NCBI GenBank assembly: GCA_024698865.1
Contig: JAILQS010000034.1
Coordinates: 1 to 41,097, forward strand
Direction: 5' to 3'
Source: Lachnospiraceae bacterium
Lineage (GTDB): Bacteria; Bacillota; Clostridia; Lachnospirales; Lachnospiraceae
Length of the DNA: 41,097 bases
Shown: positions 1-39,000 of the stretch, piece by piece
How the letters are laid out: each line of letters begins with the position of its first letter
Numbering within the stretch: position 1 is the stretch's first letter
The notes under the pieces: model-generated
What the model saw: the letters and a program-made list of their open reading frames with translations, nothing else
Databases searched by the model: none
What the model was told of the DNA's origin: nothing
Position numbers and translations under genes: made by a program

Positions 1-160
1 CATTGGAGAACAACCCCTGTACTCCAAGGTACTCAACTCCAAGAACATCTTTGATTGCGCTCTTGGAAAGGAGATTCAGTAACAATGACATAATCTGATA
101 CAGTATCCCCGCTATGAAATTTCTCATTGAATTGATTTCTCTTGAACTTTGATTTTCCAC
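1..160 (-). CDS. Wzx/oligosaccharide flippase-like protein, N-terminus only (runs off the window)
   Basis: Not in ORF track. Reverse complement gives AGGAG-TTAAC-GTG then VENQSSREINSMRNFIAGILYQIMSLLLNLLSKSAIKDVLGVEYLGVQGLFSN; the 'LGVEYLGVQGLFSN' segment is typical of polysaccharide flippases. Confidence 0.8.
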   Translation of the reverse strand, partial: MENQSSREINSMRNFIAGILYQIMSLLLNLLSKSAIKDVLGVEYLGVQGLFSN

Positions 161-181
161 GTTAACTCCTGTCTTCCTTCT

Positions 182-1537
182 TTATTCCACCAATTGCCAT
201 TTGCCTTTTTTGACATTCCACTCATACGCAGCAAAATAATTTATATGATTGGCAAACCTGCAACCTTTTGTTGCAAGTTGAATTCCTTCCCCAATTTTAA
301 TTCCGATTTCAAGTCTGGAATTCTCGGTTGTATCTAAAAGTCCCGGGAAATCCACTTTTCCGGAGAAAGTAATTTGAGCATCCGAAAAATCGGTTTTGAG
401 GTCGCACAATCTTGTACCTTCTTCATCCTTTATTGCAAGCTTGATGGAATACTCCTTAGGCATCCCTGCAAATCCCGTATTTTTAAGCGTGCCGCCAATT
501 TCCATCGCACGCCCCGGAATTACTTTTCCTTGCAATTTTACCTTTCGCAGATATGCGCGATACCCCAGATGATTCTTTATGTATTCATCTGCACGCTGTC
601 CCTTGTACGTTTCATTTCCCCAGGCTTTCCACACTTCTGTATTGTAATAATAATTCAAATACGTCAGATGCATCTGTTTCATCGCCTGTACTGCAGACTT
701 TGCCGTAGTATACTCGCTGACGTTCGTCGTCTCTCCGCCCGTCGCACCATAAACCATATTATCATGCATCCATGTCAACTCTGTTTTACGTGTGTAATTT
801 TCTTCTACGAAAGTTCCCATATCCGTATCTGTGGAAAATAGTGCATCGTCATGTACGGTAAGCCTTTCCTTTGGAATTCCTTCTGCAATCGCTCTTCGTA
901 CAAACATCGGTCTGCGAAGTGCAATGGAAATGGAATCGTCCAATTGCTCATCCATTTCTTTTAAAATCGGCATCCAGTCCCAACTGTTGTTTTGTCCATT
1001 CGATGCCGACTCTGTTTCCGCTCCGTCGTCAGTTCCTTCTATAAATTTGCTGGAATGCCACTCCCCGTACGGTCCGATAAAACCAGCCTGAACTACGAGA
1101 ATGCACTCCTTATATCCGTTGATGACCGGCGCCAACTGACGTATATGCGCTTTTATTGTCTCGTCACTTTCCGGATCTTCGTAATTGCCGCCCCAGTCAT
1201 AGGCACACCGAAGAACAACACTCAGCTCTTCCTCTCTGGCAACCTTTAATGCATTTTTCAATTCTTTTATTTTTTCTTTCGGCAATTTCTCCTGATTCAG
1301 ATAGTCCTTGAGATTTAGTGCAATCAGCACAACTGAAAATTTGTCATCTCCGTAATACTCTTTTATATGGTCGACTTCCTCCGCCGGAATCTGAAAATAA
1401 ACGCCCCTGCGCGGATTGTTTATCTGCTCCTTACTTTCTTCAAACATTAATTGTATCGGTAAAGGAACTGTATATATAAAGAGCACTACCATGAAAACTG
1501 CAAAAAGAATAATTGGTATCAGCCAGCGCTTCTTCAT
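182..1537 (-). CDS. Secreted/membrane-anchored DUF4874/DUF4832 protein (TIM-barrel glycoside-hydrolase-like)
   Basis: 451 aa, N-terminal TM, 'NPRRGVYFQIP' and 'QAGFIGPYGEWHSS' motifs; last complete gene of the polysaccharide operon. Confidence 0.75.
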   Translation of the reverse strand: MKKRWLIPIILFAVFMVVLFIYTVPLPIQLMFEESKEQINNPRRGVYFQIPAEEVDHIKEYYGDDKFSVVLIALNLKDYLNQEKLPKEKIKELKNALKVAREEELSVVLRCAYDWGGNYEDPESDETIKAHIRQLAPVINGYKECILVVQAGFIGPYGEWHSSKFIEGTDDGAETESASNGQNNSWDWMPILKEMDEQLDDSISIALRRPMFVRRAIAEGIPKERLTVHDDALFSTDTDMGTFVEENYTRKTELTWMHDNMVYGATGGETTNVSEYTTAKSAVQAMKQMHLTYLNYYYNTEVWKAWGNETYKGQRADEYIKNHLGYRAYLRKVKLQGKVIPGRAMEIGGTLKNTGFAGMPKEYSIKLAIKDEEGTRLCDLKTDFSDAQITFSGKVDFPGLLDTTENSRLEIGIKIGEGIQLATKGCRFANHINYFAAYEWNVKKGKWQLVE

Positions 1538-1554
1538 TTTCTTACCTGTCTTTC

Positions 1555-2544
1555 CTACTTTTGCAACCGTAATATAATCTTACAACATACGCAGTATAGC
1601 GATGGACTAAACCGGAATATATCTAAAACAAGGCGGTCAAAGAGACTTGCTTTTTGGCGGATAATTTTCTTTTCCGACTGCATAAAAGCTTTCCAGGTTT
1701 GACGCAGCTTCCTGTAGGTCTCCTGCTGTCCGTCCATTTCCTTGCGCACTCTGTAGTATGCAATCTGTACACTTAACGCATATCTAAGTTTTGCTGCTGC
1801 CTGAAGTTGTGCATCGTATGAAAAATAATCCACCGCCTCACGCAATGCCTCGAGTTTATCGAGTCTTCTCAGTGAATAATTGACATGCATAATACTGTTC
1901 TTTCGCTGGAAATAATACAATAACTTCACCGGATATCTCAGTACGGTATCACTTTCTGCAATTGCTTTGTAAGTGACAAATTCATCCTCGTTCAATTTAC
2001 CAACCGGATAAAGGTGTTCTCTCATCTTCGCTGTTTTGTAAATCTTAGCGGATGCACTGATTACTCCTGCCTCACCATCTTCAACAATTAATCTGACTGC
2101 CTCCCGTCCGCTAAGAACCTCAGGCTCGCATCCGGTGATTGTTTCCTCGCTAATAGGATCCCCTTCATAATATACATACAAATCGCCAATTGCCAAATCC
2201 GCACCTTTTTTTATCGTTGGCTCCAACATTATCTTAAGGAAATCTTTGTGCCAGAAATCGTCGCTGTCCAGATAAGTAATATACTCAGCTGACGCTTGCA
2301 TCGTTCCTGCATTTCTTGCCGCACTCAAGCCCTGATTTGCCTGATGAATTACGCAGACGCGGGCATCTTTTTTTGCATACGCGTCACATATCTCACCGCT
2401 GCGATCCGTAGAACCATCGTCTACCAGAAATATTTCCATCGCATCGGGTTCCTTATACGTCTGTGCCAATACGGAATCCACACATCTGTTTAAATAGTCC
2501 TCCACATTATAAACCGGGATTACTATGCTAATCTTCTTATCCAT
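1555..2544 (-). CDS. Family 2 glycosyltransferase
   Basis: KISIVIPVYNVEDYLNRCVDSVLAQTY...LVDDGSTDRSGEICD...YLDSDDFW. Confidence 0.93.
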   Translation of the reverse strand: MDKKISIVIPVYNVEDYLNRCVDSVLAQTYKEPDAMEIFLVDDGSTDRSGEICDAYAKKDARVCVIHQANQGLSAARNAGTMQASAEYITYLDSDDFWHKDFLKIMLEPTIKKGADLAIGDLYVYYEGDPISEETITGCEPEVLSGREAVRLIVEDGEAGVISASAKIYKTAKMREHLYPVGKLNEDEFVTYKAIAESDTVLRYPVKLLYYFQRKNSIMHVNYSLRRLDKLEALREAVDYFSYDAQLQAAAKLRYALSVQIAYYRVRKEMDGQQETYRKLRQTWKAFMQSEKKIIRQKASLFDRLVLDIFRFSPSLYCVCCKIILRLQK

Positions 2545-2554
2545 AAAAACCTCT

Positions 2555-3613
2555 CTATTTAACCGTTTTTTTGATATACAACATCATAAGTGGTTTGAAA
2601 ATCCAAAATACCAGCGCGATTAACACGCCTAAATTTCTGTTTAGACAAAAATGCAGGAATCCATAAAACACTTTTTGCAGGAAGCTTGGAATCGTTCGAA
2701 GTGCTTTATGAAAATCTTTGCGCCTCATCACGTACATAAAATCCTCTGATTTGCAAAACGGTTCCATATAATACCGATATCTTTGCAAGGTCATTTTCTC
2801 ATAAGGGATGTTTTTTACCATTGCCCAACTAAATATCCTCATGACAAGCGGTACCACCAAATCCATATTTTCATCCAATACATCGTTGTCCTTCAAATCA
2901 TTCACATAACTGCGGGTCAGATTCACATACCTGTGCGATATTTCGGTATCTGCCGTATGCGTTGTAGAATTATCCTGTATATAATAGTTATACACCCAAA
3001 CCTGACACAGATAATAGGATGGTTTCTTTGCCCACGCTTTTAAATTAAACAACGTATCTTCCATATAAACCGTTTTTACATCTTCGAAAAACAGTCCGTT
3101 CTCATCCAAAAAGCTCTTTTTGTATAACTTGTTCCACAAATATCCGAACAAACTCGAGGTCTTGATGCTCTCATATCTCTGTTTCTCATCTGCTGTACCA
3201 TCTTTTTTGACCTCGCCCTCTGTGTATTCATTTCCGACCGGAGTTCTTACCCCATTCTCAATTCTGTAATAACTGCCACAAATAATATCATGCGTCTCTC
3301 CGGCCTCCATAAGTCCTCGCAAAGCACCCGGTTCCAACGCGTCGTCCGCGTCTATAAACATAACGTAATCACCGGTAGCTTCCTTTAGGCCACGATTTCT
3401 GGCAGCTCCCTGTCCACCGTTGGGTATGTGAAAAATCTGGATATTTTCCTCTGTTTGAAAATGATCCAGATACTCCGATGTTCCATCCGTGGACCCATCG
3501 TCTATTACAATAATCTCTACAGACGGATAGTCCTGTTGCAAAACGGATGTCATACATTTTTCAATTGTTGCGATTCCGTTATAAACGGCTATAATCACAC
3601 TGATTCCAGGCAT
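2555..3613 (-). CDS. Family 2 glycosyltransferase
   Basis: ISVIIAVYNGIATIEKCMTSVLQQDYPSVEIIVIDDGSTDGT...MFIDADD. Confidence 0.93.
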   Translation of the reverse strand: MPGISVIIAVYNGIATIEKCMTSVLQQDYPSVEIIVIDDGSTDGTSEYLDHFQTEENIQIFHIPNGGQGAARNRGLKEATGDYVMFIDADDALEPGALRGLMEAGETHDIICGSYYRIENGVRTPVGNEYTEGEVKKDGTADEKQRYESIKTSSLFGYLWNKLYKKSFLDENGLFFEDVKTVYMEDTLFNLKAWAKKPSYYLCQVWVYNYYIQDNSTTHTADTEISHRYVNLTRSYVNDLKDNDVLDENMDLVVPLVMRIFSWAMVKNIPYEKMTLQRYRYYMEPFCKSEDFMYVMRRKDFHKALRTIPSFLQKVFYGFLHFCLNRNLGVLIALVFWIFKPLMMLYIKKTVK

Positions 3614-3635
3614 ATTCTTCCTCCGCCTTCAACAA

Positions 3636-4703
3636 TTATTTGGATAAAAGGTTTTCTTTCCTTATCCTGCGTTTTGCTCTGTTAAAATGATAATAATCGA
3701 TCAAATAGTTTCTTATGGTTTTAAAACAGAACACGCAACAGGTTCCGGTTCCAAAATGTTTGATTCCAAGCCATACATGAGACTTTGGATATCCATTAAT
3801 GAACATATGCATAAAATACATGCGCGCAAGTATGCATTTTAGTGCTTTACCGTCATAAAATCCCGTTGCCGCATTTCTTCGTTCCAGCCGCAACAGCCAC
3901 TCCGTCAGATGATTCTCTGAAACTCCTGCCTCGCGTCCGGCAATTTTATAATGTGTCTCTTTCTCTTCCTCGGTTAAGCTCTCTTCTCCGAAAAAACGTT
4001 CCAGCTGTCTCTCCAGTATCTGATTGTTCTGTCTAAGCTGTCTGCCTCCCTGTGCATTCGACACCTGGCCTTCACTCATCCGATACAAAACTTCGTTATT
4101 TCGGGTTCCGGCGATACCCTCCGGATACATTTCTACGATTCTCGTCCATAACTCCATATCTTCGGACACGGTGAATCTCGAATCGTATACATAACCGTAT
4201 TTATTTTTGATCTGTTCCAGACATTTTCTTCGAACAATGACTGCATTATGGTTTATCACATTATGGAACAACAAAATAGTACGTATATACGACGGTTGCA
4301 AAGGATTCGTGTTATGATCATTAATCAGTTCCTCTCCTTTGAACTTTACGATATCACTAAAGGAAAGCTGGATATTTGGATTATGATCCATAAATTCCAC
4401 CTGATGTTTCAAGCGATCCGGCAGACATATATCATCCGCATCAATACGAATGATATATTCCCCTTCTGCAACATCAAACGCTTTGTTCAAGGAACCTGCC
4501 AGTTTCAAATTTTCTTCATTGTAAAGCAGGCGTATTCTCTCATCCTTGTAACTTTGCAAAATACTTCTCGTGTTATCTTTTGAACAGTCATCTACGATAA
4601 TCAACTGAAAATCCGTAAAACTCTGATTCAGAATACTATCAATTGCTGCTTTTAGATATTGTTCCCCATTATATACGGACATCAGCACAGAACATTTCAC
4701 CAT
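3636..4703 (-). CDS. Family 2 glycosyltransferase
   Basis: CSVLMSVYNGEQYLKAAIDSILNQSFTDFQLIIVDDCSKDNT...IRIDADDICLPDRL. Confidence 0.92.
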   Translation of the reverse strand: MVKCSVLMSVYNGEQYLKAAIDSILNQSFTDFQLIIVDDCSKDNTRSILQSYKDERIRLLYNEENLKLAGSLNKAFDVAEGEYIIRIDADDICLPDRLKHQVEFMDHNPNIQLSFSDIVKFKGEELINDHNTNPLQPSYIRTILLFHNVINHNAVIVRRKCLEQIKNKYGYVYDSRFTVSEDMELWTRIVEMYPEGIAGTRNNEVLYRMSEGQVSNAQGGRQLRQNNQILERQLERFFGEESLTEEEKETHYKIAGREAGVSENHLTEWLLRLERRNAATGFYDGKALKCILARMYFMHMFINGYPKSHVWLGIKHFGTGTCCVFCFKTIRNYLIDYYHFNRAKRRIRKENLLSK

Positions 4704-4733
4704 GATATGTGCTCCTTCCCTGACCTTTCGCCT

Positions 4734-6182
4734 TTACTTTTTATTTTCCTTTTGGTATACAATACTTTCCGCTTTTACACCGGTTCTCTTGGTAGTAATT
4801 ATCTGCGAACAGAAAACGTGTGCTTCAAAATGCTTTTCCATATAACGAATTCTGAAGTACGTGAAGGTCCATCCTACTACTCCACCAAACAAAGCTCCCA
4901 TTCCGTAATAAGCTACAGCATAATCTTTTGCAACCCATGTACCTGCTGCCGTGCACAGGAAGAAGATCAGGCTGGACCAGAAAGCTCCAACATTATCATC
5001 AAAGTAATAGAAGTACACAATATTACAATACATTAAGAATATTGCTAAAAATGCTACTGCCAGTGCCGGGTATATTTCCATAATCATTCCCGCAATTCCC
5101 AAAGAAGGAAGGAAAATCTCGAATGCAAGATAAATGGTTGCGGTAATAACCGTCTGGATTGCAAAGACCTGTGTAATCTGCTTCATCAGCAAACGGAACA
5201 AGCCGGATTTCTCTTTTTCGATAGTTGCCAGAGTCGCACCATTAATTGCTGCAACGAACTTCTGGAACTTATCGTGAAATTTCGTTTCTGCCAAAACAGT
5301 GAAAATAATCAAAATGGAAAGGTTGGTTATCAATGCAAGACAAGTTGCCATGTCATATGACTGCATTGTTACAAAAGTCTTTGCTACTACCAATCTGTCC
5401 TTAGACATCCAATATATAAAATTGTGTATGTACAGTCCCAGGAAGTACAACAGATTCGCACCAAATACAAGTTTGTACTTTCCAAAGTACGTCAGACACT
5501 GCGTATAATTCTTATTGTGATTTCTAAAATAATAACGGATGTAGGTTCCATTCAGCACTGCAATCAACAAAGTTCCGATTGCAAAGCCGGTAATAATGGA
5601 GTTCGACACCAACTGTCCGGCAAACTCATAGAGTCCAAAACTGATTGCCAGCGCTACAATCATACCTACAATAAAGGACGTTGAAATAAACCTATAATCT
5701 TTCGTTGCATACAGGTATGTCATCGAGAAATACAAAATCATTTCTGACATCCAGAAAATATATGCAAATAATACAAAGACCGGTTCCACTCCACCTACCA
5801 CAATCAAACGATAACAAACCGGTGCGCTGACTAATGTCGCCAATGTACAAACGATTGCCAGTCCGGTGTAGTAAGACGGCAAAATACTCTGAAATTCTTC
5901 TGCAAATATCCGGTCCGCCAGATATCTGGAGAAAACCGCGTTGATTGGTGCTGTTAAAACTACCGCACCGATGAAAATATAGAGAATTGTAGAAGACAAT
6001 AACTCTCTTTCACCATATGGTACTTTGCCATATCCCAATAATAAATAAATTGTCAACAATGCCAACATCACTATGATGGTTGGTCCTACCGTTACAAGAA
6101 TACTGTATGCAGCTCCTGCGATATTACCTACGATACTCTCTTCACGATAAATCTTTTTTAATTCAAAACCTATTCCTGCCAT
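4734..6182 (-). CDS. pelG: PelG-like exopolysaccharide membrane transporter
   Basis: 482 aa polytopic protein beginning MAGIGFELKKIYREESIVGNIAGAAYSILVTVGPTIIVM, characteristic of PelG; adjacent to PelF. Confidence 0.93.
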   Translation of the reverse strand: MAGIGFELKKIYREESIVGNIAGAAYSILVTVGPTIIVMLALLTIYLLLGYGKVPYGERELLSSTILYIFIGAVVLTAPINAVFSRYLADRIFAEEFQSILPSYYTGLAIVCTLATLVSAPVCYRLIVVGGVEPVFVLFAYIFWMSEMILYFSMTYLYATKDYRFISTSFIVGMIVALAISFGLYEFAGQLVSNSIITGFAIGTLLIAVLNGTYIRYYFRNHNKNYTQCLTYFGKYKLVFGANLLYFLGLYIHNFIYWMSKDRLVVAKTFVTMQSYDMATCLALITNLSILIIFTVLAETKFHDKFQKFVAAINGATLATIEKEKSGLFRLLMKQITQVFAIQTVITATIYLAFEIFLPSLGIAGMIMEIYPALAVAFLAIFLMYCNIVYFYYFDDNVGAFWSSLIFFLCTAAGTWVAKDYAVAYYGMGALFGGVVGWTFTYFRIRYMEKHFEAHVFCSQIITTKRTGVKAESIVYQKENKK

Positions 6183-6206
6183 ACTGCCCCTCCGGTATCT
6201 CTCATC

Positions 6207-7610
6207 TTATACATATATCTCCTGATACATATCAAAATATTTACGGTATGCATCTTTCGCACTATTTGCTACTGCTCGTTTATAACCTGCTTCGCCCATT
6301 GTTTTACGAAGATTCTCATCCTTAGACATCTTGGACATTGCCTCTGCCATTTTACCTACATTCATAACCGGCACTACAAAACCGGCACTTCCGAAATCAT
6401 CCGCTTCACCCCGAATCATTCCGGCACAGTTTCCAACATTCGTTGCAATGTATGGTTTCTTTGCGGAGAAGCCTTCCAGAATGGATAACGGCTGTCCTTC
6501 ACTAATACTACTCAGCACCAGGAAATCCATCTTGCCAATATAGTCCTTTATATTTACCATTCCTGTAAATACAACATCTGTTGTACCAAGTTCATCTACG
6601 AGTTCACGACACTCCTGTGCATACTCAGGGCTTTCATCCATACCACCCATAATCCAGAGTTTTAATTTTGGATTGTTTTGTTTGGCTAATGCAAAGCCGC
6701 TGATTAACGTCTTAACATCCTTGATCGGCGTCACACGCAAAACTGCTCCGACATTGATAAACTTATCGTCCGGATCCTTCTGCGGTATTCCTTCAAATCT
6801 GGACGCATCCACACCATTTGGAACAATCATGGTCTTCTCTTTTGGACATCCCAGTTCTATCTGAAAATCTCTGGCGTCTTTAAAAAGTGATACTACCCTG
6901 TCTGCAGAATCATAGCAACAGGTGGATATTTTCTTGAACTGACTGATCCACAAATCTTTATATAACCCTTCTACCCATTTGGACTTGATAATTTCTTCTT
7001 CTCTCTCACGGGTATAAATACCATGCTCGGAAATCACTACCGGTTTGTTGTATACATGGTGCGCGTAACATGCAAGGATTCCTGCATATCCCGTAGACAC
7101 GGAATTATAAATATCCGCCTGTGGAAGTTCTCCCTTTAATACCGTAAACAAAGGAAGGTACATAGATCGCATCGTCCAAAGGAAATCATTAAAGATTACA
7201 CGCTCAAAATTTGATTTGTAATACTCTGCCGTCATATTCAGGAAATCTTCACTTGCAAGAAGATCATTGGTAGATACCTGATGATTATGGAAATAATCAA
7301 AAATAATACTCCAATCCACCTGATCACCAAACATCAGTGAACGAAATGCTTCGTATTCTCTTGCGTTCAGTTTTACGCGATTTCTTTTGTTTCTTTTTAC
7401 AATATCCTGATCCAGAAGATATACTTCGCGCATTTCCGTTACATTATCCGGCACTTTATATTTTATCTCTTTTTTCTCTTCTCTATTGGAAGAAATAATC
7501 TGCACTGAGAATTCCACTTCCGGCATAGATAAAATCAACTGTTGCACCCAATTGGCAACTCCTCCGTTTACGTATGGATATGCTCCTTCTACTACCAGAC
7601 AAACTTTCAT
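6207..7610 (-). CDS. pelF: PelF-like GT4 glycosyltransferase
   Basis: MKVCLVVEGAYPYVNGGVANWVQQLI start, VVISEHGIYTREREEEI, SISEGQPLSILEG E-x7-E motif. Confidence 0.94.
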   Translation of the reverse strand: MKVCLVVEGAYPYVNGGVANWVQQLILSMPEVEFSVQIISSNREEKKEIKYKVPDNVTEMREVYLLDQDIVKRNKRNRVKLNAREYEAFRSLMFGDQVDWSIIFDYFHNHQVSTNDLLASEDFLNMTAEYYKSNFERVIFNDFLWTMRSMYLPLFTVLKGELPQADIYNSVSTGYAGILACYAHHVYNKPVVISEHGIYTREREEEIIKSKWVEGLYKDLWISQFKKISTCCYDSADRVVSLFKDARDFQIELGCPKEKTMIVPNGVDASRFEGIPQKDPDDKFINVGAVLRVTPIKDVKTLISGFALAKQNNPKLKLWIMGGMDESPEYAQECRELVDELGTTDVVFTGMVNIKDYIGKMDFLVLSSISEGQPLSILEGFSAKKPYIATNVGNCAGMIRGEADDFGSAGFVVPVMNVGKMAEAMSKMSKDENLRKTMGEAGYKRAVANSAKDAYRKYFDMYQEIYV

Positions 7611-7620
7611 GCCCCGCCTC

Positions 7621-9291
7621 CTAATATTCTATAATTAACTTATTTGCCGTTTCTTCAATTAAATACGTGTTGTCTATAATCTGTTCCGCTGTTCCACCCT
7701 CTATGGATTTAAACGGAACCTCAAGTCTCAAAATATAATATGCCACTCCACTAAAGCTTTTGGGTTCTACAATTATCTGACCGCTTTTTTTATCCTCATT
7801 TGTTTTATATGTAATCTGCGGCTGCAAATTCCGAAAAACCAGAATTCGATTGGTTGCATCCACCACGTTCAACGGATCCACATACGGATACATATTTTGA
7901 ACGATTCCCGTGGTCGTGTTCATATCATCATAATATTTTACCCAATCATCACTATCATCCTGTGGATGCAATACATTTTCCATATTTACTCTTGTTGAAA
8001 CAAAACCAAGCGATGTCACCGCAGAACAAATCGTAATAATATCTGTATGGGTGAGCTTTGGCTGCTCTTTTACAACCGGAATGTTTAAGCGTTCCTTTTG
8101 GGCATCTACAAACGTAAAACTACTGCCCCATTCCTTCAACGCTGTCGGAATGCTTGTATCCGGTTTTTGCTCATCAAAATATACACAGTCACCGTTAAGC
8201 ACTTTTCCCAACGCCGTTCCCTCTCGAACAATCTGTTTTTTGAAATAATCCAGTGTACTGTCGTTATTATTCTGTTTGAACGCTTCGTAATCCTCCGTAT
8301 AATACGTAGGAATTACATTATATTTACTACAAAGATTTGATATTCCCGGGAAAAGTAAGTCTCTCTCCACGCCCATAGCATCTCTGCTGTAGCGTTTGTC
8401 CAATTCTTCAGACTTAAAATTGTCTGTGTATGGATAATTCATAAAGAAGATGCAGTTACCGTTAATTACGGGATATATCATACTTCCTTTAATCTTTGCC
8501 AGAATGGAAACACAGATTCCAGGTGCCACCTTTGTACTCATCAGATTAGAATTGACAACAAATATCTCGCTGTCTCCCATCATATGTCTCCAGATAAGTG
8601 GCGGAAGCGTTTCGTTTTTGCCAAGTGTTTCATCTGCCTTATATCCTTTCAGGCTATATGCAAATACTTTGCTTCCCTGTACAAGACTCACATCTTCCAG
8701 TTCTATTTCAATATTCTCAAATTCCAAAAGATCGCTTGCCAGGAAATTTGAAATAATACGTATTCCCTTGTAGTTCTTCTTACCTTTATCTTCCAGAATC
8801 CCCAGCTGCTTTCTTCCCCACTCGCTCTGTAAAATCTTTGCGGATGGAAGCCGGCTCCATATAACATGCGTTCCTTCCTCTATATAACGGTCTATCGAAT
8901 CCTGTTCTTCTTGTGAATAATTGTTTTTATTTAAAAAGATAGCTTCTGTCTTACCCTCTTTGAACGTAACGTTCTCTGATACTTCATAGGTGAAATTCAG
9001 ATTGTTGAGTTCCCCGCAAAGCATAAGAACTCCAGCATCGTCTTCATCTCCAAAAATACGATACTCTGCTTTTTCTTCCGTTGTACGGTTATCCTCCAGT
9101 GCTTTTACTTCCTGAAAATATTTCTGTACCGGAATGTTTTTGTGTTTTATATCTGTACTTCCCTGTTCCAGTAAAAGATACGTCAGATTACTGATTAACT
9201 GAAATACCAGGAAGAAGATAATAATACCGGCAGTTATCGTATAGTATTTGAATTTCTGTACTCTTAGCTTTTCTTTGGATTTCTTCTCCAT
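7621..9291 (-). CDS. DUF2194 membrane-anchored extracytoplasmic protein (possible PelA-equivalent)
   Basis: 556 aa, one N-terminal TM, large extracytoplasmic domain, located directly upstream of pelF. Confidence 0.65.
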   Translation of the reverse strand: MEKKSKEKLRVQKFKYYTITAGIIIFFLVFQLISNLTYLLLEQGSTDIKHKNIPVQKYFQEVKALEDNRTTEEKAEYRIFGDEDDAGVLMLCGELNNLNFTYEVSENVTFKEGKTEAIFLNKNNYSQEEQDSIDRYIEEGTHVIWSRLPSAKILQSEWGRKQLGILEDKGKKNYKGIRIISNFLASDLLEFENIEIELEDVSLVQGSKVFAYSLKGYKADETLGKNETLPPLIWRHMMGDSEIFVVNSNLMSTKVAPGICVSILAKIKGSMIYPVINGNCIFFMNYPYTDNFKSEELDKRYSRDAMGVERDLLFPGISNLCSKYNVIPTYYTEDYEAFKQNNNDSTLDYFKKQIVREGTALGKVLNGDCVYFDEQKPDTSIPTALKEWGSSFTFVDAQKERLNIPVVKEQPKLTHTDIITICSAVTSLGFVSTRVNMENVLHPQDDSDDWVKYYDDMNTTTGIVQNMYPYVDPLNVVDATNRILVFRNLQPQITYKTNEDKKSGQIIVEPKSFSGVAYYILRLEVPFKSIEGGTAEQIIDNTYLIEETANKLIIEY

Positions 9292-9293
9292 AC

Positions 9294-10037
9294 TTAACCC
9301 TTAATCCTTTTGTGTCGCAAAATTGCAATTAACGTACTCAGCATCATAACACACATATACTTCATTGGTTTGATAATGCCGGAGTGCATTGCCTCACCCA
9401 TCGTTCTCTCATACATAATGGCAGGCGTTTCTTCCACCTGATATCCCAAAAGCATCATCTGAATCAACATATTAATATCCGGGTAACGAATATCAAATTT
9501 CTGGTATCCTGCATAATAACAGAACGCCCTTCTGCTTAACCCCTGCAGACCACTTGTAGGATCTGTAACCGTTTGCTTCGTAACGATTTTGATAATCTTC
9601 CGAAACATCTTCACGGCAAACAGTCGAATGCCTGACATCGGAAAAGATTTTGCTCCCTCTAAGTATCTGGAACCAATGATAATATCCAATGGACGATCTG
9701 TCTGCTCGGATGCTTTCATCTTTTCATAAATAACGTCCACATTTTTTACATCATGCTGCCCATCTGCATCTATTTGAATGATGTATTTATACTCTCTTTC
9801 TTGTGCATACTTATATGCCGTCTGGAGCGCCGCTCCATATCCCATGTTGTACACCTGTGACAGTACTTTTGTCCCGGTCTTCTTTACAACTTCCTCCGTA
9901 TTATCCGCAGAACCGTCATTAATCACCAGAACATCTGCATATTCTTCAATTCCGGCGTTTCGTAAATTAACGATCACCGTCTCAATGTTCATTTCTTCGT
10001 TATAAGCCGGGATAACCACCAATGTTTCCTTTGCCAT
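9294..10037 (-). CDS. GT2 of the dolichyl/polyprenyl-phosphate glycosyltransferase (DPM1-like) type
   Basis: ETLVVIPAYNEEMNIETVIVNLRNAGIEEYADVLVINDGSADNTEEV...YIIQIDADGQHD...IIIGSRYLEG...DPTSGLQG. Confidence 0.88.
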   Translation of the reverse strand: MAKETLVVIPAYNEEMNIETVIVNLRNAGIEEYADVLVINDGSADNTEEVVKKTGTKVLSQVYNMGYGAALQTAYKYAQEREYKYIIQIDADGQHDVKNVDVIYEKMKASEQTDRPLDIIIGSRYLEGAKSFPMSGIRLFAVKMFRKIIKIVTKQTVTDPTSGLQGLSRRAFCYYAGYQKFDIRYPDINMLIQMMLLGYQVEETPAIMYERTMGEAMHSGIIKPMKYMCVMMLSTLIAILRHKRIKG

Positions 10038-10052
10038 TCTTACACCTTCTTT

Positions 10053-12194
10053 TTAATATTGAATCGATAAGTTGTTGAGCGCATATTCATTTTGCTCCAA
10101 ATGATATATAATCGTCTCCTTATCTTCATAATAAACCTTCATCTCGTGTGGGTACTGCTTTGCGTATTCCTTTGCCCAATAATAAGCTCTTGCCATTATG
10201 GCACTACGCTGCGTCTGGTAAATCAGACTCTTCTCCGCTTCCGAATACTCACCCAACGGTTCTCTTAAATCCGCCCTGGAGATTTTTTCTCTCCCCTCAA
10301 GGCTATTCTTGTCCATTACATCCACACCCAAAAACATAACCGGATATTTTTCAATTACAAAGAATACGTCTTTGGTCGGAATAGTAAACAACTGGTCCTC
10401 TGACCAATGGTCCAGTTTGTCCGCCAGATCCAGTAACTCATAATGATATCCGTAATTCAATACAATAGACGTTTCATTTACCGGTGAAACTACCGTCCAG
10501 GAATTCTTCGGATACTCATCTACCAGTTCCCGGCAAAGCTTTGCTGCCGCTTCTGTCTGAATCTGCATACAGGTTCTCTCCTGCTTTTGATATTTGTAAT
10601 CATATCCAATGTAAATCACTACCACCACAGAAGCTATGGATAAAAAGATTGGAATGAATTTGACCTTCTTTAATATAAAGCAAACCATCTGATATATAAT
10701 CTCAAAAGGCGTCATAAATGCTGTCATTCCAAATATAAATACCCATTCAATTACACGCTTTTCTTCTATCAATGCGGAATATCCAAGCATCGTAAGATCC
10801 GAAAGACCGGCTGCAAAACACCAAGCAATTGCCATTCCCAAATAAAAACGGAATGCCGTATTGGATTTATTTTTTCGCGTAACAATAATTGCAATGATGC
10901 ATAACAGCAAAGAAAGTCCGATCAGCGATAACAGTATCGTGTATTCTAGCCGTCCAAGACCTCCCCATGAATTCATGGCATCAAAGAAGCGCTTCTCCAC
11001 TTCCTTAAAATTTGTAAAGTCTACTTTTGCAATCTCCGGCGGTAACCCTTCCTCTGTTGGCGTAGAATAGTCTTTGTTCATAACTCCGATTGCCCATGCA
11101 ATAGACTGCTCAAACGGGTAGCCAAGCACCAGTCCCACCACAAACGGCACAAGGGAAAATATGATACTTCCTATCGCAGTTCCAACGAGTGGAAAGAATG
11201 TTTTATTTTTAAAAATCGGAACCAGATTGGCAATTCCAAATGCTACACATACGAACGCAACAAACATCGTGAGATAAAAGTGCGAGAAGAACGTGATGCA
11301 GATTGCCGTACCAAACAAAAGTAATGTCTTTCGTTCCTTTTGATATATATATTCCGTCATAAAATAAATTACGGCAAATAACGCAAACAATCCGTATTCC
11401 ATCGGTAATGTGAACTGAAAACGGAAATAGGTATTGATTCCTCCAAATCCTGAAAGCAACCAGATCAGCATCGAAGCAAAAATCAACACTCTTGCCGTAT
11501 AAAACCTACGAAACAACATATACACCGTTGCCATGGTCAATATCAGAATGGTTGCTGAAAACACATGCACTACCCGTCCTGCCGGCAACCCGGATATCAA
11601 TGCAAGTACCGTCATTACACTATGCATTCCAAACGGATACATACCGGAAACAAAAAAATCTCCGCCGATAAGCGCCTGAATCCAATACAGGTGTACTTCC
11701 TCATCCGATACGCCATACGCATTGTTATGTAACTTGTAATAACCATAGAAGTTCATTACCACCAATACCAGTGCAAGAAATACCAGGTATTCCAGTACTT
11801 TTCCGCGTATTGCTCTTTGATAAAACTTATGATATTTTCTCTTAATGTTCTGTCGGATTCTTTTTAAGTATAAATGTCCTCCGAAATATCCACGCAGCAT
11901 TTCATAAGTCGTGATACCCGCTTTTTGCAAATTATCCCGGTAAGTCCAGGTACGATATACAAGTGGTAATAACAGCATAATTACTACTGCGGGCGTATAA
12001 AACAAATGAGAATACCCTAAAATAAACACTAAAACAGAGATGTACAAATTAGAATACAAAAGGTATGCAAATACTCGGTAGGAAAGTGCCTTCTCCTTAA
12101 AAACCGGATAAAGCACGTATGCCGGAAGTATTATAAAAAGTACACCGTATGTAATTAGAATCTGTATCATATCAATTAGATTGTTTACTAGCAT
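10053..12194 (-). CDS. Large polytopic membrane protein, GT-C/DUF6541-like putative lipid-linked-sugar glycosyltransferase
   Basis: 713 aa, ~12 hydrophobic helices, early acidic 'VSDEEVHLYWIQAL' loop as in GT-C proteins, soluble C-terminal region. Confidence 0.6.
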   Translation of the reverse strand: MLVNNLIDMIQILITYGVLFIILPAYVLYPVFKEKALSYRVFAYLLYSNLYISVLVFILGYSHLFYTPAVVIMLLLPLVYRTWTYRDNLQKAGITTYEMLRGYFGGHLYLKRIRQNIKRKYHKFYQRAIRGKVLEYLVFLALVLVVMNFYGYYKLHNNAYGVSDEEVHLYWIQALIGGDFFVSGMYPFGMHSVMTVLALISGLPAGRVVHVFSATILILTMATVYMLFRRFYTARVLIFASMLIWLLSGFGGINTYFRFQFTLPMEYGLFALFAVIYFMTEYIYQKERKTLLLFGTAICITFFSHFYLTMFVAFVCVAFGIANLVPIFKNKTFFPLVGTAIGSIIFSLVPFVVGLVLGYPFEQSIAWAIGVMNKDYSTPTEEGLPPEIAKVDFTNFKEVEKRFFDAMNSWGGLGRLEYTILLSLIGLSLLLCIIAIIVTRKNKSNTAFRFYLGMAIAWCFAAGLSDLTMLGYSALIEEKRVIEWVFIFGMTAFMTPFEIIYQMVCFILKKVKFIPIFLSIASVVVVIYIGYDYKYQKQERTCMQIQTEAAAKLCRELVDEYPKNSWTVVSPVNETSIVLNYGYHYELLDLADKLDHWSEDQLFTIPTKDVFFVIEKYPVMFLGVDVMDKNSLEGREKISRADLREPLGEYSEAEKSLIYQTQRSAIMARAYYWAKEYAKQYPHEMKVYYEDKETIIYHLEQNEYALNNLSIQY

Positions 12195-12218
12195 ATAGGT
12201 ATCCCCATTCTTAATTCA

Positions 12219-13121
12219 TTAAGTATAAAAACGTATCCATTCTACTGCTTCACTGTCAAGTACCAGAGAAGACGCTTTCAAATCCTCCATAACTTTCTCA
12301 AACTGTTCAAACTGACGATTCGAAAAATAGTAGCGCATACACACCTTAATTGCCTCAAGATCATCCTGACAGTTTGCACTGGCATAGGCAATCCACTTTT
12401 CCGCCTTTTCTCCGGAATCCTGTTTCTCCCAGATTTGAACGATTGTTTTTAATTGCTCACCGGACAACACTCCGTCCACGCTTTCTGCAAGCTGCCATAA
12501 TCTTTTATCTAATAAATCACTGTATCTACCCTGTTCCTGCTTGTTCATTACATTTTGAAGCAGGAAGTTACCAACATAACTTACATAGTTTTGCAGTGCT
12601 GCAACGTCTGCAGAGTCTTCCAGTTCTTCCGACAATAGCTTTTCCTGACGTTTAAAGTCTGCAATCGTTTCAGATAAGAATGCTGCTGCGTAATGGGAAA
12701 TCTCAGAATCCTGATCCTCAATTGCCATTTTAACTATGTCGATGGAACCTGATACATCTGTTTTTAATACATCTAAAAAGGCATTTCTTCTACTATGTTT
12801 ATCTGAAATAATAAGTGTTTCTTCAATCGGTACTTTATTGCTCTCCTGTCGGATATCCGCTGCAGTAATTACTTTTATCTTCTTGCCTCCTACCAGATCA
12901 CTGATATCCATGGAGTCATGCATAAAATAATCCATTGGAAAATAGAACAGACGAATCAGCAGATAAAACAACGGCGCAATGACCGGACAAAAGAAAATGA
13001 TAATTGCCCAGGTGATTCCCTTTTGCTTTTCGCCTTTATAAATCTGATAGCACATCTCGACAAACGCAATCACTGTATTGATAACAAGTACCACAACCAA
13101 TACTTTTATATATTCATCCAT
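12219..13121 (-). CDS. pelE: PelE-like protein (N-terminal TMs + helical repeat domain)
   Basis: 300 aa, two N-terminal TM helices then a TPR-like helical domain; immediately downstream of the PelD-like gene. Confidence 0.6.
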   Translation of the reverse strand: MDEYIKVLVVVLVINTVIAFVEMCYQIYKGEKQKGITWAIIIFFCPVIAPLFYLLIRLFYFPMDYFMHDSMDISDLVGGKKIKVITAADIRQESNKVPIEETLIISDKHSRRNAFLDVLKTDVSGSIDIVKMAIEDQDSEISHYAAAFLSETIADFKRQEKLLSEELEDSADVAALQNYVSYVGNFLLQNVMNKQEQGRYSDLLDKRLWQLAESVDGVLSGEQLKTIVQIWEKQDSGEKAEKWIAYASANCQDDLEAIKVCMRYYFSNRQFEQFEKVMEDLKASSLVLDSEAVEWIRFYT

Positions 13122-13133
13122 TTAACATACCTC

Positions 13134-15284
13134 TTAATCTACCACAACAACTTTTAAATGGTTGTTCGCAAATCTTGTCACTACGGCACTTACTTCAGTT
13201 CTTGAGGTGTTGGCAAGAAGAATCTGTACTTTATCTTTTACGATTCCGATGTAGTCCGTATCACGAATCAGTCCTTCTGCCATTGCCATTTCTTTCTCTG
13301 TGTTCTGCTCTACAACCAGTTCCAGTTTACAGTACTCTGACAAACCATTTTCCATACCTTCTCTCAATGTTTCTTCACACTGTAAGAAAGCCTGTTCCTT
13401 CATGATGTTCGTATCTTCATAATAACTGTCTCTGAACAAAGCATCCATAAATTCAAATGCTCTACCGATAGATTTCTCAACCAGTTTACATAAAAGAGCA
13501 AGTAAGTTTGCCTGATATAAAGTCGTTGTTTCCAACTCTTCCGGCCAAACCATTATAATCGCGGAAATGGCTCCGTTATAATGTGTTACGCCTGCAAGAA
13601 TCGGTAACTTTTGGTCAAGTTTCACGTTACGATAAATACCATTCTCCGAAAGCTGTTCAAAGAATCTGCTTTCCTTGTCCAGTTTGAAGGAATTGCCAAG
13701 TTGTCTTGATTCGTCTGAAGTGGAAGCTGCCAGACGGTAATAATCAGATGCACCGTTTCCAACATATACGGCAACATTCTTGCATTCCATTGTCTGCGAA
13801 ATAACTTTTGCTGCCTGGAACACTACCTTCTGCGACTCCAGATAATCCAGTTCACTCGTAATCTCATAAATCTTGGACATACTGTTTTTGTAGTTCACCA
13901 GACGTTTTTCGAATACATTTTTAATGTATACGTTACTCTCGTTAATCTCTTTGATTTCTTTTAATTCTCTCTTGTCATAACGATTCTCTTCTTTGAGGTC
14001 TGCAATCTCTGTTTTGAGTTTGTCTCTGACATAGGAAACTACGACGCCGATTAACAGAAGCTGCAATACCCATACGTATCTTTCAAAATCAATCAATACG
14101 GCAAACATACCATCTACTGCAAAGGCTGCTGAGAAATGGCCGATTGCACTGAGCACTACCGCAATGAGTGACTGTGTCGTTCCCAAAACGGCAGCTATAA
14201 TCACTACATAAATCAGGTAGAAATCAACAATTTCACCAAACCAAGTTCCTTTAAACAATAAAGTTAATGCATATGCCAGCGCAAACATCAAAGCATTTTC
14301 AATTAACTGGCGCACTACAATATCAAAAGTACGGCGCTTGCCTTCTTTGCCGGTATTCTTTTTCTTGTTCTTCTTTACGATATTGTTAATCTCTTTGATA
14401 CTGTCCTCGATATGGTTTCTAAGTTTGAAACCGATATCATCCATACGCTTGGTAGAAAACTCTTTTGCTATACGGTCTTTGACTTGTCTGCTCTCCTCGA
14501 CTTCCAGGTCTTTGAACAGCGTCTTCTTCAAAAGATCCACAATCTCCTGTTCTGTTACCACAGTTCCCGGTACGTTATAATGAACGTGTGGCTCCTCCGG
14601 ATCATGGAAGGATAACGCGTAGCACGCCTCCACAGCATCCTTAAGGCCAATCATAATATGTTCACTGTTTGGACGACATTTTACTTTTCCTTCTGCATTC
14701 GCCTGTGTTAACATATCTACAAGCACATTATTTTGCATACAGTGGGAATCCTGTACTCCATATACTTCCGGCAGACGGACAATCTTTACTTCAAATTCAT
14801 CCGGCTCACGGTAGAATACGCAAAGTCTTTCCCCTTGTGCAATTGTCTCCATGGTCTTAGTAGCTGCCATCGGGCGGATCAGTTCCGTAATCTTATTCTC
14901 TGTATTACCGTCATGAACGTAGAGACTGCTAAGATAAATAAACTTTTTGACATTACCAAGTTTGGCCGCTGTTACAACATTTACAAGACCGGAAATGTAC
15001 TCAACAGACTTGTTCTGTAACGCCAATTCCTCTTTATCTGCCAGGCTGTCGGCAAATATTACAATCTCCGGATTCACGTTCTGAATTACATTTACCACAC
15101 GATCACTGGTAAATGCGAAATCGTACTGCTGGAAAACTCCTTTTGCTGACTTCTGTATTCCGCTCTCGTCCCCAGTCAATACATAGATTTCATGATCTTC
15201 TTTTCGAAGCTTTGCAATAAGGCTTCTTTGAAACGCTGTGTAACTTCCACAAATTAAAACGTTAATAATAATCAACCTCCCCAA
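13134..15284 (-). CDS. pelD: Degenerate NAD-epimerase (SDR)-like domain fused to PelD-like TM-GAF-degenerate GGDEF c-di-GMP receptor
   Basis: N-term Rossmann-like region (VLICGS...FIYLSSLYVH...RLPEVYGVQ), four TMs, coiled coil, GAF-like region, C-terminal RDTD-x4-VKDKV-QILL matching RxxD I-site + degenerate GGDEF. True start uncertain (see findings). Confidence 0.8.
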   Translation of the reverse strand: MGRLIIINVLICGSYTAFQRSLIAKLRKEDHEIYVLTGDESGIQKSAKGVFQQYDFAFTSDRVVNVIQNVNPEIVIFADSLADKEELALQNKSVEYISGLVNVVTAAKLGNVKKFIYLSSLYVHDGNTENKITELIRPMAATKTMETIAQGERLCVFYREPDEFEVKIVRLPEVYGVQDSHCMQNNVLVDMLTQANAEGKVKCRPNSEHIMIGLKDAVEACYALSFHDPEEPHVHYNVPGTVVTEQEIVDLLKKTLFKDLEVEESRQVKDRIAKEFSTKRMDDIGFKLRNHIEDSIKEINNIVKKNKKKNTGKEGKRRTFDIVVRQLIENALMFALAYALTLLFKGTWFGEIVDFYLIYVVIIAAVLGTTQSLIAVVLSAIGHFSAAFAVDGMFAVLIDFERYVWVLQLLLIGVVVSYVRDKLKTEIADLKEENRYDKRELKEIKEINESNVYIKNVFEKRLVNYKNSMSKIYEITSELDYLESQKVVFQAAKVISQTMECKNVAVYVGNGASDYYRLAASTSDESRQLGNSFKLDKESRFFEQLSENGIYRNVKLDQKLPILAGVTHYNGAISAIIMVWPEELETTTLYQANLLALLCKLVEKSIGRAFEFMDALFRDSYYEDTNIMKEQAFLQCEETLREGMENGLSEYCKLELVVEQNTEKEMAMAEGLIRDTDYIGIVKDKVQILLANTSRTEVSAVVTRFANNHLKVVVVD
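15276..15282 (-). promoter_or_regulatory. Strong Shine-Dalgarno (GGGGAGG) of the PelD-like gene
   Basis: Reverse complement AATATTGGGGAGGTTGATTATTATTAACGTT; lies inside the ORF-track start. Confidence 0.75.
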
Positions 15285-15306
15285 TATTAAATTTTATTTT
15301 TTGTTT

Positions 15307-15693
15307 TTACTTTGATTCCTTGTTTTCCAAATCAATAATCTTTTGTTCCAGTTCTTCTTTTTCATTTTTAAGAATAGAAACCTGCATCGTTAATTCCGAC
15401 ACCTGATTTATTAATTTTGAAATAGACGAGGTTTGATGAAATATGATAAATGCAAGCAATACACTTATCATCACAAAAAGAATCGTTGGTGGATACCATA
15501 CTCCGAACCATCCAGCGACAATATTGATTATTCTTGGATACACTCCAAGAACCATAATAAAGACAGCACTAATAAGCCAAGGAATGGCCTGTGCTTCAGT
15601 TATCATCCTAGACTTGATTCTGGATACTACGACCCAGATGAGTAAAATACCTACTACTTCCGCAGCAATGTTAATTAAAATACTCATATCCAA
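15307..15693 (-). CDS. DUF2304-like small membrane protein with C-terminal coiled coil
   Basis: 128 aa, three TMs + KNEKEELEQKIIDLENKE; DUF2304 proteins commonly accompany DPM1-like GT2s. Confidence 0.7.
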   Translation of the reverse strand: MDMSILINIAAEVVGILLIWVVVSRIKSRMITEAQAIPWLISAVFIMVLGVYPRIINIVAGWFGVWYPPTILFVMISVLLAFIIFHQTSSISKLINQVSELTMQVSILKNEKEELEQKIIDLENKESK

Positions 15694-36003: not shown

Positions 36004-39000
36004 TTAGAATCCTCCTGTAAATCGTTTGATTCCACCCGAAAACTTGAAATCGCCAACCCACAGATACGTTCCATCGTAACAAATATAGAACGGATTAAAG
36101 AAGGTATCTTCGGATTGTATTGCCGTCACCTCATCTGTCAGGTCGAAGGATGCGTTGGTCGGGTCTGCATTTCTCACATCATATACATTGTAATAATTGG
36201 AGCCGTTTCCAAGTATGGCAATGGATTTTTTACTGTTTTCTTTCACTTCATTTACGGCATCCGCAATAGAATTCCAGATAATAATTCGGCAAAAGCCACC
36301 ATCACAGGCAATCACCTGTCCTGTAGGCGTTACCAGAATTTCAGATAGTCCACCAAAACTCCTATACCGGGTGCTATAGAGTGCTTCACCGTCGTTGTAT
36401 TTATCGATAATCTGCTTATGCGCTCCTTCTATTACATTGGCATTTTCCATTGCCGTTCCTTCAAATATATCGGAGGTTTTGACAATGCAGGCATGCTCAC
36501 CTACATTTGCAATGCCGACGTAGGTATTTCCATCCTCACATTTGGTGACATGTATCTTGGCATTTCGATACGTTTCTGTCTGATTGTCCGACAACGTAAA
36601 TGTCATCTTTAGTGTAGCTACCGGGTTAGAATCTGTTCCCGGCACTCCTTCATACACGTACAGACTGTCGTCCTGCGTCATATAAAAGTACCCATCACAA
36701 TAATCGATTGCATTGATATAATTGATATTTAGATTTCCTATTGTATCACATAAATATGTTTTCGGTAATTCTTTATGAAATGCGTCGTTAATATCCTCAT
36801 AATAATACAGTCTGTTGCGCTGCGCTACCGCCAAGCCTGTGATTCCGTCATGTTCCACAAAGGTTACATCTTCCACACTGTCGCTATATTTATATACCAA
36901 ATCCGGTTTTGCATCGTTGCTGTCCGGCAAATGTTTCCACAGACAAAGTGCCCCGTTATAGTCATCCAATGATGCAAAATATTTGCCGTTGGATTCTGTT
37001 ACGCAGTTTTGATATTTGAACAATGTGTCGGCAACACATTCCTTTACATCTCGTGCGCCAATACATATGTTTGGAGCATCTGTCGCATGTTTTTCAAGGA
37101 TACCCGTATTTGGGTTGTTCCAGTAGTACGTGCCGTTGTAAACAAATGTATCTCCGTTTCTTTCTATCTTATCAATATCGACACTTGCAGGTTCTGCCGG
37201 GAACGTACCTGCTTTATATCCAACAATCTTTCCTGCATTTATTCCTGCACTGTATAAATTGTTATTGTGATCCTGTATAAGCGGCGCAATATCCCCGCCG
37301 ATAAAGTAATAGTAATCCGTCGAGTTAAACAGGTTACCGCCAATATAGTAATTCGGCTTATCCGACTCACTATCCACTTTGCCGTCCTTCCATACCGTTA
37401 GTGCTCCACCTTCATGCAGAATCAGCGTTCCTGCTTTTAACGTACCTGCATTTGTTGTCTGAATATCATTTTTCAAAATAAGTCCGCTTGGCTGACCTGA
37501 ATTATGATCCGTGTAAGCGAAGTCTCCAGGGTATTCACAATAATCAAATAATTTCTCTGTATTGTTTTCTTTGTTGTACTGTCCCTGATAATCAAGCGTT
37601 GCTATATCGTTAAATACTCTAAGTGCCGCATACTGTGGCTCTCCCTTAAAGCTTACATTGTGATCTCCCACCAATAGATAGTTCCCATTACAAGTGATTG
37701 TTCTTGGTGTTCCTCCAGTATAAATTACCTTATCCGGATACTTGTCATCCGCTGCAGGTAAACCTTTGTCCCATATCAAAACATATCCGTCCTGTGTGGA
37801 AGTAGCAATCAGTCTTTCGCCGTCCGTATACAAATCCCACGGCCAGGCTACTCTTGCATAACTTGGATTTTTCATTACCGATGTATCCGTGTAGTTATAT
37901 TTCTCCGGATCGTATTTTTGCATAATAGAGAAGTCTGCCGGCGTTCCATGCGCATTTTGCACCGGAATATCATTCCACACAAGAATTCTGTTATTCTTCG
38001 CATCTGCAACGAATATCTTAATCTTGCCATCTGCCTGCTTCGTAGCCGCTACTCCAACCGGCCAGTTCAGTGCGCTTAAGGAACATCCGGCTTTCGAAGA
38101 GGTGACATCCGGCTGCCCAAGTACACAATATAAATACTCTGTCACGTCACTTCCATTCCAAACTTTATCTTCCGGCACGCGGAAAATCAGAACGCGGTTG
38201 CTCCACGTATCGGACACAAAATAATAGTTATATCCGTCTTTATAAACCGTATCTATATCTGCGGCATGTTCATAGTATTGGCTGGAACATTTATTTATTC
38301 CCGATGACAAAAGCGTAAGGTCACAGCTTTGTCCGTCTGTAAAACTCCTGTCTGTGCCAAGCGTCGCCTGGTTGTAATTGTTGTCCTCGTTTTCCATTAC
38401 AGAATATAATGTGCTAAACGGTTCTACATTTACTTCTGTACTGTTATATTTCACACCATTATCTGTGCTAAAGGATGCACGTATCTCACAGCTTCCTCCT
38501 TTGCCCGGAACACCGTACACATTTCCCTGCTGATCTACCGTTGCAACTGATGTATTGGTACTGCTTAGCGTGTATGGCAGATTAACCCCTTTGGCTCTAA
38601 CCGTAATTTTGTGAGTCACTCCCGGACGAAGTTGCACTCCGTATACGGAGAATTCAAAGCCAACAACACTTACGTTGCATCTATATTTTCTTGTACCGTA
38701 AGTCGCCGTAATTACGCTGGTACCTGCCATATTTGTTCTAACCTGTGCATTGTTATCTATCGCTGCAACCTGTGGATTGCTACTTGTCCATATGACACGG
38801 TTAGCCTGCGCACCATTCAACGTAAGTTTGTAGCTGTCATTTTCTGCAAGCGTAAGATTGGTCTTACTTATACTTACGCCAGTGTAATCGATGTTGTCCT
38901 GAGGGTTACCCGGCTGCATGGATGCCGGTTTTGTCACAGTCACTTTACACTTATAGGATTTTTTCTTGTTGGTAGCGGTGATTGTTGCACTACCTGACTT

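Follow-up and report, generated by a model that had tools for sequence, protein, structure and literature searches.

Deacetylation by PelA is regarded as required for the production of the exopolysaccharide Pel and for its cationic, DNA-binding character. Here, we analyze a stretch of 41,097 nucleotides from a Lachnospiraceae bacterium (assembly GCA_024698865.1, contig JAILQS010000034.1), in the following referred to as the window, which represents its source contig (C42 in our set) at full length and stems from a fragmented genome assembly of 2.54 Mb that is 86% complete. The first 15,693 positions hold a Pel-type operon in which the homologue of the deacetylase lacks its catalytic residues, and which also encodes a predicted membrane glycosyltransferase of GT-C fold together with a putative pair of proteins for polyprenyl-phosphate sugar synthesis. 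This composition may reflect an exchange of deacetylation for glycosylation.

In Bacillus cereus, deacetylation by PelADA is required for Pel production, and PelADA was modelled to dock on PelG via its N-terminal helix (PMC13254593); deacetylation by PelA is likewise required in Pseudomonas aeruginosa (PMC10269871). The pelDEADAFG operon of B. cereus ATCC 10987 has in common with the window the order PelD, PelE, PelADA, PelF and PelG, the lack of PelB and PelC and a separate hydrolase (PMC7112168, PMC13254593). In contrast, neither a GT-C protein nor a DPM1-like enzyme or DUF2304 protein is described for B. cereus, its PelD is without the SDR domain that is present in the window, and the PelADA active site, dead in the window, is intact in B. 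cereus (PMC13254593). The streptococcal and clostridial pel operons with CotH, VTC (PPP), DUF4956 and DUF4832 genes (PMC12345266, PMC7112168) share with the window an SDR-containing PelD, the DUF4832 hydrolase and the core order, but possess CotH-VTC-DUF4956 where the window has GT-C, DUF2304 and the DPM1-like protein. The deacetylase motif is intact in 11 relatives of that type, and streptococcal PelD is devoid of GGDEF, whereas the window PelD retains an RxxD motif.

The additional genes resemble the GacI/GacJ/GacK/GacL system of Streptococcus pyogenes and WpsA/B/G/J of Lactococcus (PMC8035078, PMC10821137), which also combine a GT2, a DUF2304 protein, a Wzx-type flippase (truncated in the window) and a GT-C protein; the Wps system has, as the window does, extra cytoplasmic glycosyltransferases. 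However, the Gac and Wps acceptor is a rhamnan from an ABC-exporter pathway, while the module in the window sits in a synthase-type Pel operon, and the GT-C protein of the window falls into no named family of Pfam or NCBIfam. The parts work like Gram-positive Pel and GacIJKL-type glycosylation. Our literature searches, which covered few subscription papers, returned no account of their union in such a gene set, of its near-exclusive alternation with the CotH set or of the consistent loss of the deacetylase site, in line with an earlier note on this DNA, whose author knew of no system with this exact composition.

Results

Organization of the operon

The operon runs on the minus strand from position 15693 to position 1 and comprises 12 complete genes and one truncated flippase gene, separated by gaps of 2-30 bp. 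All genes of the tightly packed series from DUF2304 to the flippase that the earlier note had listed are there in that order, although only the first 53 residues of the flippase are encoded, and its naming of PelF and PelG is borne out by the family scores given below.

15307..15693, minus strand: DUF2304 protein, putative GacJ/WpsB-like small membrane activator of a polyprenyl-phosphate sugar synthase (PF10066, 1.5e-20; TTG start)
13134..15284, minus strand: PelD, with degenerate SDR domain, transmembrane region, GAF domain and degenerate GGDEF-like C-terminus (Epimerase, 7.7e-9; TTG start)
12219..13121, minus strand: PelE homologue, assigned by homology and position; no Pfam family above cut-off
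10053..12194, minus strand: membrane glycosyltransferase of GT-C fold, 713 aa, proposed side-chain transferase (AlphaFold2 model and Foldseek)
9294..10037, minus strand: DPM1-like GT2, 247 aa, putative GacI-like polyprenyl-phosphate sugar synthase (PDB and NCBIfam matches)
7621..9291, minus strand: DUF2194 protein, PelADA homologue and predicted pseudo-deacetylase (DUF2194, 1.8e-13; profile match to 9zau_A)
6207..7610, minus strand: PelF, GT4 Pel polymerase (NF038011, 369.6 bits, cut-off 100; EX7E motif)
4734..6182, minus strand: PelG, membrane translocase of the Pel complex (PF16933, 382.8 bits, 3.1e-114)
3636..4703, minus strand: GT2 of the variable part, proposed to act in side-chain assembly (PF00535, 3.3e-35)
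2555..3613, minus strand: GT2 of the variable part (PF00535, 9.1e-37; homologue in the closest relative, G084)
1555..2544, minus strand: GT2 of the variable part (PF00535, 7.3e-40; homologue in the closest relative, G084)
182..1537, minus strand: DUF4874/DUF4832 putative glycoside hydrolase, SIR_1591-like, with a presumed role as Pel hydrolase (PF16116, 5e-36; PF16173, 1.2e-32)
2..160, minus strand: Wzx-type flippase, 5' end only (53 aa), cut at the contig end at base 1

The gene set recurs as a distinct operon type

For association statistics, we sampled 200 genomes of the window's family. The GT-C protein was present in 22 of these and PelF above its curated cut-off in 35, and every one of the 22 GT-C genomes also had PelF (21 above the cut-off, G026 as a fragment; hypergeometric P about 3e-20). 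Reading about 40 loci revealed two operon types. Type A, pelD-E-ADA-F-G-CotH-VTC-DUF4956-DUF4832, corresponds to the streptococcal/clostridial type already described (PMC7112168). Type B commonly has the order pelD-E-[GT-C]-ADA-F-G-DUF2304-GT4-DPM1-DUF4832, while the window and its relatives G084, G086 and G028 are arranged as DUF2304-pelD-E-[GT-C]-(GT4)-DPM1-ADA-F-G with a variable tail; in some further type B loci (G011, G106:C22, G134 and G162) GT-C is located downstream of the DUF4832 gene. Among 60 loci with a full core that were retrieved by GT-C, 56 had this gene directly between pelE and pelADA and none had CotH or VTC; among unselected loci, the position between pelE and pelADA was occupied by GT-C in 8 of 20.

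A scan of named genomes with a subset GT-C alignment, which is biased to GT-C-bearing loci and was left out of the association statistics, yielded 80 further loci, a few of them repeating loci of the first set. These came from species including Blautia luti, Hominisplanchenecus faecis, Fusicatenibacter saccharivorans, Anaerobutyricum hallii DSM 3353, Roseburia porci and Lacrimispora saccharolytica. The same gene set thus recurs in about 90 sampled loci, by which an explanation of the set as chance neighbours is rejected; homologous clusters keep the GT-C module, and the test of the earlier note, which took a lack of these genes in such clusters as refuting, came out in favor of that note. Of the genes which that note regarded as additions to Pel, GT-C, DUF2304 and the DPM1-like gene proved to be recurrent, while the three GT2 genes and the flippase gene of the window are shared only in part and only with G084 and form a variable and not a defining part of the operon. 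A single locus (L051, G018:C39:61000-80990) carried both sets, i.e. CotH, VTC and DUF4956 as well as a GT4, GT-C and a dead PelADA; no DUF2304 or DPM1-like gene was found in it. In a tree of PelF and PelG, all type B loci fall into one clade with a support of 1.0.

The PelADA homologue of type B operons has lost its catalytic residues

A DUF2194 profile built from 23 proteins matched PDB entry 9zau_A over nearly its full length (E = 3.2e-47). We take this entry to be the crystal structure of B. cereus PelADA, because the DD, HxxxH and H488 positions fit the published numbering with a constant offset of 25 and P405 and R458 land on P and R (PMC13254593). The AlphaFold2 model of the window protein (predicted local distance difference test, pLDDT, 81.3) gave the deacetylase Agd3 as best structural match (E = 4.9e-10). 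Agd3 is an Aspergillus deacetylase of a GalNAc-containing polymer. The two matches reject the candidate that DUF2194 is an unrelated non-glycan protein; by CE26 homology and predicted fold, it is a homologue of PelADA.

We then read nine positions with a catalytic or metal-binding function in B. cereus PelADA (D262, D263, HxxxH, P405, R458, H488, D490 and D491; PMC13254593) off an alignment, in which conserved flanks fix the MT1 and MT2 positions and the H488 position is less secure, as the LHP of the window protein could fit there. The set was complete in 11/11 proteins of type A (CotH-type) and in 0/89 of type B (GT-C-type), and it was also missing from the hybrid locus. The first aspartate was gone in 88 of the 89 type B proteins and both histidines of HxxxH in all 89; D263 was replaced by asparagine in 64, the first histidine by serine in 73 and the residue in the H488 column by aspartate in 73. 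With N, S and D conserved in 72-82% of type B, the altered site points to re-use of the pocket rather than to decay. An alignment-free count gave the same picture: the motifs were present in 0/90 GT-C-linked copies, which carry neither D-D nor HxxxH, versus 21/24 copies without GT-C, the latter including pel loci from other families. The three exceptions lacking intact motifs were the second tandem copy in G089, G091 and L167, and a recheck of the genomes with degenerate PelADA but no GT-C uncovered no overlooked GT-C gene. The window protein has no DD-F/Y-P motif and no HxxxH anywhere in its sequence, and a Pfam scan of its operon recognised no other deacetylase domain. Its AlphaFold2 model retains the N-terminal helix (residues 2-43).

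Separately, locus L056 (G089:C72, 3-2754) harbors tandem DUF2194 genes, of which the first, a partial one, has an intact HxxxH while both motifs are degenerate in the second. This may be a snapshot of how a pseudo-deacetylase originates.

The 713-aa protein is predicted to be a GT-C glycosyltransferase

The 713-aa protein matched no Pfam or NCBIfam family above cut-off. Its AlphaFold2 model, built with 22 relatives, had a mean pLDDT of 84.3 and a predicted template modelling score of 0.86. In a Foldseek search against the PDB, ranks 1-27 were all GT-C proteins or complexes containing them (E from 2.8e-5), i.e. DPY19, STT3/OST, AglB, ALG9, ArnT, PglB, AftA, AftB, Pmt and Emb, most of which take polyprenyl or dolichyl donors. 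The global template modelling score of about 0.4 indicates likeness at the level of the superfamily and not a close relationship. The invariant residues D164 (in 22 sequences), H168, W171, G184, Y186, P187 and H191 lie in the first large outward loop, which we placed outside by the positive-inside rule, as the preceding loop carries charges of +13/-2 and this one +1/-4. Based on the modelled fold, the protein is a GT-C glycosyltransferase, as had been proposed from the sequence, and the fold matches reject the possibility that it is unrelated to glycan metabolism, a condition that the earlier note had set as refuting its reading.

Remote GT-C homologues outside the family (L169-L172, L174 and L175; e.g. 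L171, G202:C5:241000-260900) often occur as tandem pairs with a DUF3492 (PelF-like) GT4 and a DPM1-like GT2, in L171 also with a DUF2304 and a DivIVA-like protein. These clusters have no PelG, PelE or PelADA and possibly constitute another, unnamed surface-polymer system.

DUF2304 and the DPM1-like GT2 form a putative GacJ/GacI-type pair

A DUF2304 domain is characteristic of proteins of the GacJ kind (PMC8327497). Such proteins activate GacI/WpsA in the formation of GlcNAc-P-C55, as follows from the biochemistry of WpsA and WpsB (PMC10821137). The window gene is the sole DUF2304 copy in its host genome, with W39 and E100 invariant across relatives; among control genomes, DUF2304 also matched in Lactococcus lactis. 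For the DPM1-like GT2, in which D90, D92 and R124 are invariant, the best PDB match was a dolichol-phosphate mannose synthase (2.1e-8) and the nearest NCBIfam family the polyprenyl-phospho-GalNAc synthase PpgS (91.4 bits, under its cut-off of 370). Both genes co-occur in the identical 19 loci, none of them type A. Taken together, the two proteins match a GacJ/GacI-type pair that would produce polyprenyl-phosphate sugars.

The Pel core is predicted to be complete

By homology, the operon is predicted to hold the full Gram-positive set pelD-E-ADA-F-G together with a DUF4832 hydrolase resembling SIR_1591, an enzyme that acts on Pel in Streptococcus intermedius (PMC12345266), and no part of the Gram-positive pelDEADAFG system appears to be missing. 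The EX7E motif of PelF is intact (at residue 371). PelE, for which no curated family exists as reference, has homologues in the pelE position of related loci of both operon types. In PelD, the SDR domain was confirmed and the C-terminal RxxD (R674-D677) is conserved in relatives, which begin about 6-7 codons downstream, so that the true start may be internal; a sequence search against solved PelD structures in the PDB gave no match at 0.001. As PelD keeps RxxD and the host genome has 16 GGDEF matches over cut-off, control of the operon by cyclic di-GMP is plausible.

Among type B loci, many (e.g. L033 beyond 18.8 kb, and L113) have two DUF4874/DUF4832 genes, one of them mostly divergent, whereas type A loci have at most one. 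In the type B loci L034/L099 (G026:C12, Hominisplanchenecus faecis), PelF is readable only as a 159-aa fragment followed by open reading frames of 441 and 1255 aa, and pelF may be interrupted.

Boundaries and surroundings of the operon

An open reading frame of 453 aa, open at the edge of contig C79, aligns with residues 58-491 of the flippase of G084, and the flippase gene is almost certainly split across contigs C42 and C79. It is probably the last gene of the operon, since unrelated genes come after its remainder on C79. An Rfam scan of the window and four loci gave no riboswitch match, by which riboswitch control was rejected for these. No promoter was found on the operon strand upstream of position 15693; the three sites resembling promoters in that region lie without exception on the plus strand and were near the shuffled expectation. 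Elsewhere in the window (36004-39462), a secreted 1152-aa protein with apparent N-terminal Ig-like repeats and a repetitive C-terminal part is a possible surface adhesin.

Discussion

Our findings suggest, with a probability of roughly 0.58, that a Pel-type backbone is glycosylated instead of deacetylated outside the membrane, and that the dead PelADA is kept as a polymer-handling subunit. PelF would polymerise a Pel-type alpha-1,4-GalNAc backbone, to be exported by PelG with PelD and PelE. With DUF2304 as its activator, the DPM1-like GT2 would load a sugar onto polyprenyl phosphate at the cytoplasmic face. The extra glycosyltransferases (three GT2s in the window, one GT4 in most relatives) may lengthen it, and the Wzx-type flippase would turn it outward. 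GT-C would then move the sugar or oligosaccharide onto the backbone emerging from PelG, with glycosylation replacing deacetylation as the outside modification. PelADA, no longer deacetylating, would remain associated with PelG; such a docking or polymer-holding role is suggested because B. cereus PelADA was modelled on PelG via the N-terminal helix that the window protein has kept. As B. cereus needs active PelADA to make Pel, the loss of this activity in type B implies that a substitute would be needed. Gene identities, fold, conserved linkage, loss of catalytic residues and exclusive pairing with GT-C were computed directly; from these we infer the substrates, the direction of flow, the side chain on Pel, the scaffold role and the absence of free amines. 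The earlier note had offered two readings: either lipid-linked sugars are used to decorate a Pel-type polymer outside the cell, or two pathways share one operon. The former is now best supported by the GT-C fold, the GacI/GacJ-like pair and the conserved linkage to pel; that note had missed that DUF2194 corresponds to PelADA, that PelADA is catalytically dead in type B and that the operon belongs to a recurrent class alternative to the CotH type.

Several observations weigh against this interpretation. As type B forms one clade, the large counts show maintenance and not independent origins, and the gain of GT-C and the loss of deacetylation may have been a single historical event. Degeneration of PelADA is also seen apart from GT-C: the CotH-lineage copy in G091 is partly degenerate, and L167 (G419:C37, 9467-11188), from an unrelated genome, has a degenerate copy with no GT-C detected on a contig that ends in pelF, possibly an independent loss. 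In some type B loci (G086), no flippase gene was found within reach. In other classes, remote GT-C homologues have a DUF3492 GT4 and a DPM1-like GT2 as neighbours but no PelG; the GT-C family is therefore not tied to Pel everywhere, and the acceptor could be something other than Pel.

The last point leads to two pathways in one operon, in which the Pel machinery would be separate and GT-C, the DPM1-like enzyme, DUF2304 and the flippase would glycosylate another surface polymer or protein and merely be co-expressed. GacIJKL systems normally decorate wall polysaccharides (PMC8035078), and the remote homologues outside the family do occur without PelG, PelE and PelADA. Within the family, however, the 200 genomes included no GT-C genome without Pel, GT-C usually lies between pelE and pelADA, and the active site is gone from every GT-C-linked PelADA, so that we regard separate pathways as unlikely. 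Somewhat less probable still is that GT-C joins nascent Pel to a polyprenyl- or wall-linked sugar for retention at the surface, with no side chains being formed. In lactococci, the GT-C protein WpsJ was proposed to attach an entire polysaccharide to rhamnan (PMC10821137), and most loci have extra glycosyltransferases able to build an oligosaccharide linker; yet a lipid-linked primer is not described as a need of known Pel, and no observation made here tells anchoring from side-chain addition. Production of ordinary Pel, finally, with PelADA using other residues or being substituted by another deacetylase and the GT-C module as a minor accessory, appears very improbable. The non-random changes in the altered site (N in 64, S in 73 and D in 73 of 89) do indicate constraint and could reflect another activity, but the metal ligand set is left in none of the 90 copies while the fold is retained, and the operon of the window has no further recognisable deacetylase domain.

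Under the glycosylation model, the Pel-like polymer of gut bacteria related to Blautia and Roseburia is probably fully acetylated and bears side chains. We advance only tentatively, as somewhat doubtful in its full extent, the broader proposal that the Pel operons of a whole gut clade have given up deacetylation and instead use polyprenyl-phosphate sugars to glycosylate the polymer outside the cell. The dead deacetylase would then guide the polymer as a pseudoenzyme, and the product would be a branched and neutral polymer of GalNAc, where Pel of P. aeruginosa is cationic. The analysis gives names to three unnamed parts, i.e. DUF2194 as the PelADA family, an unnamed family of GT-C proteins and the DUF2304/DPM1-like pair linked to Pel. 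Among the commensals of the gut, a large natural group appears to run Pel without deacetylation. If true, this would change the annotation of gut 'pel' operons, and it would mean that exopolysaccharides made by synthases can acquire branches outside the membrane, a modification that is otherwise described for polymers of the wall.

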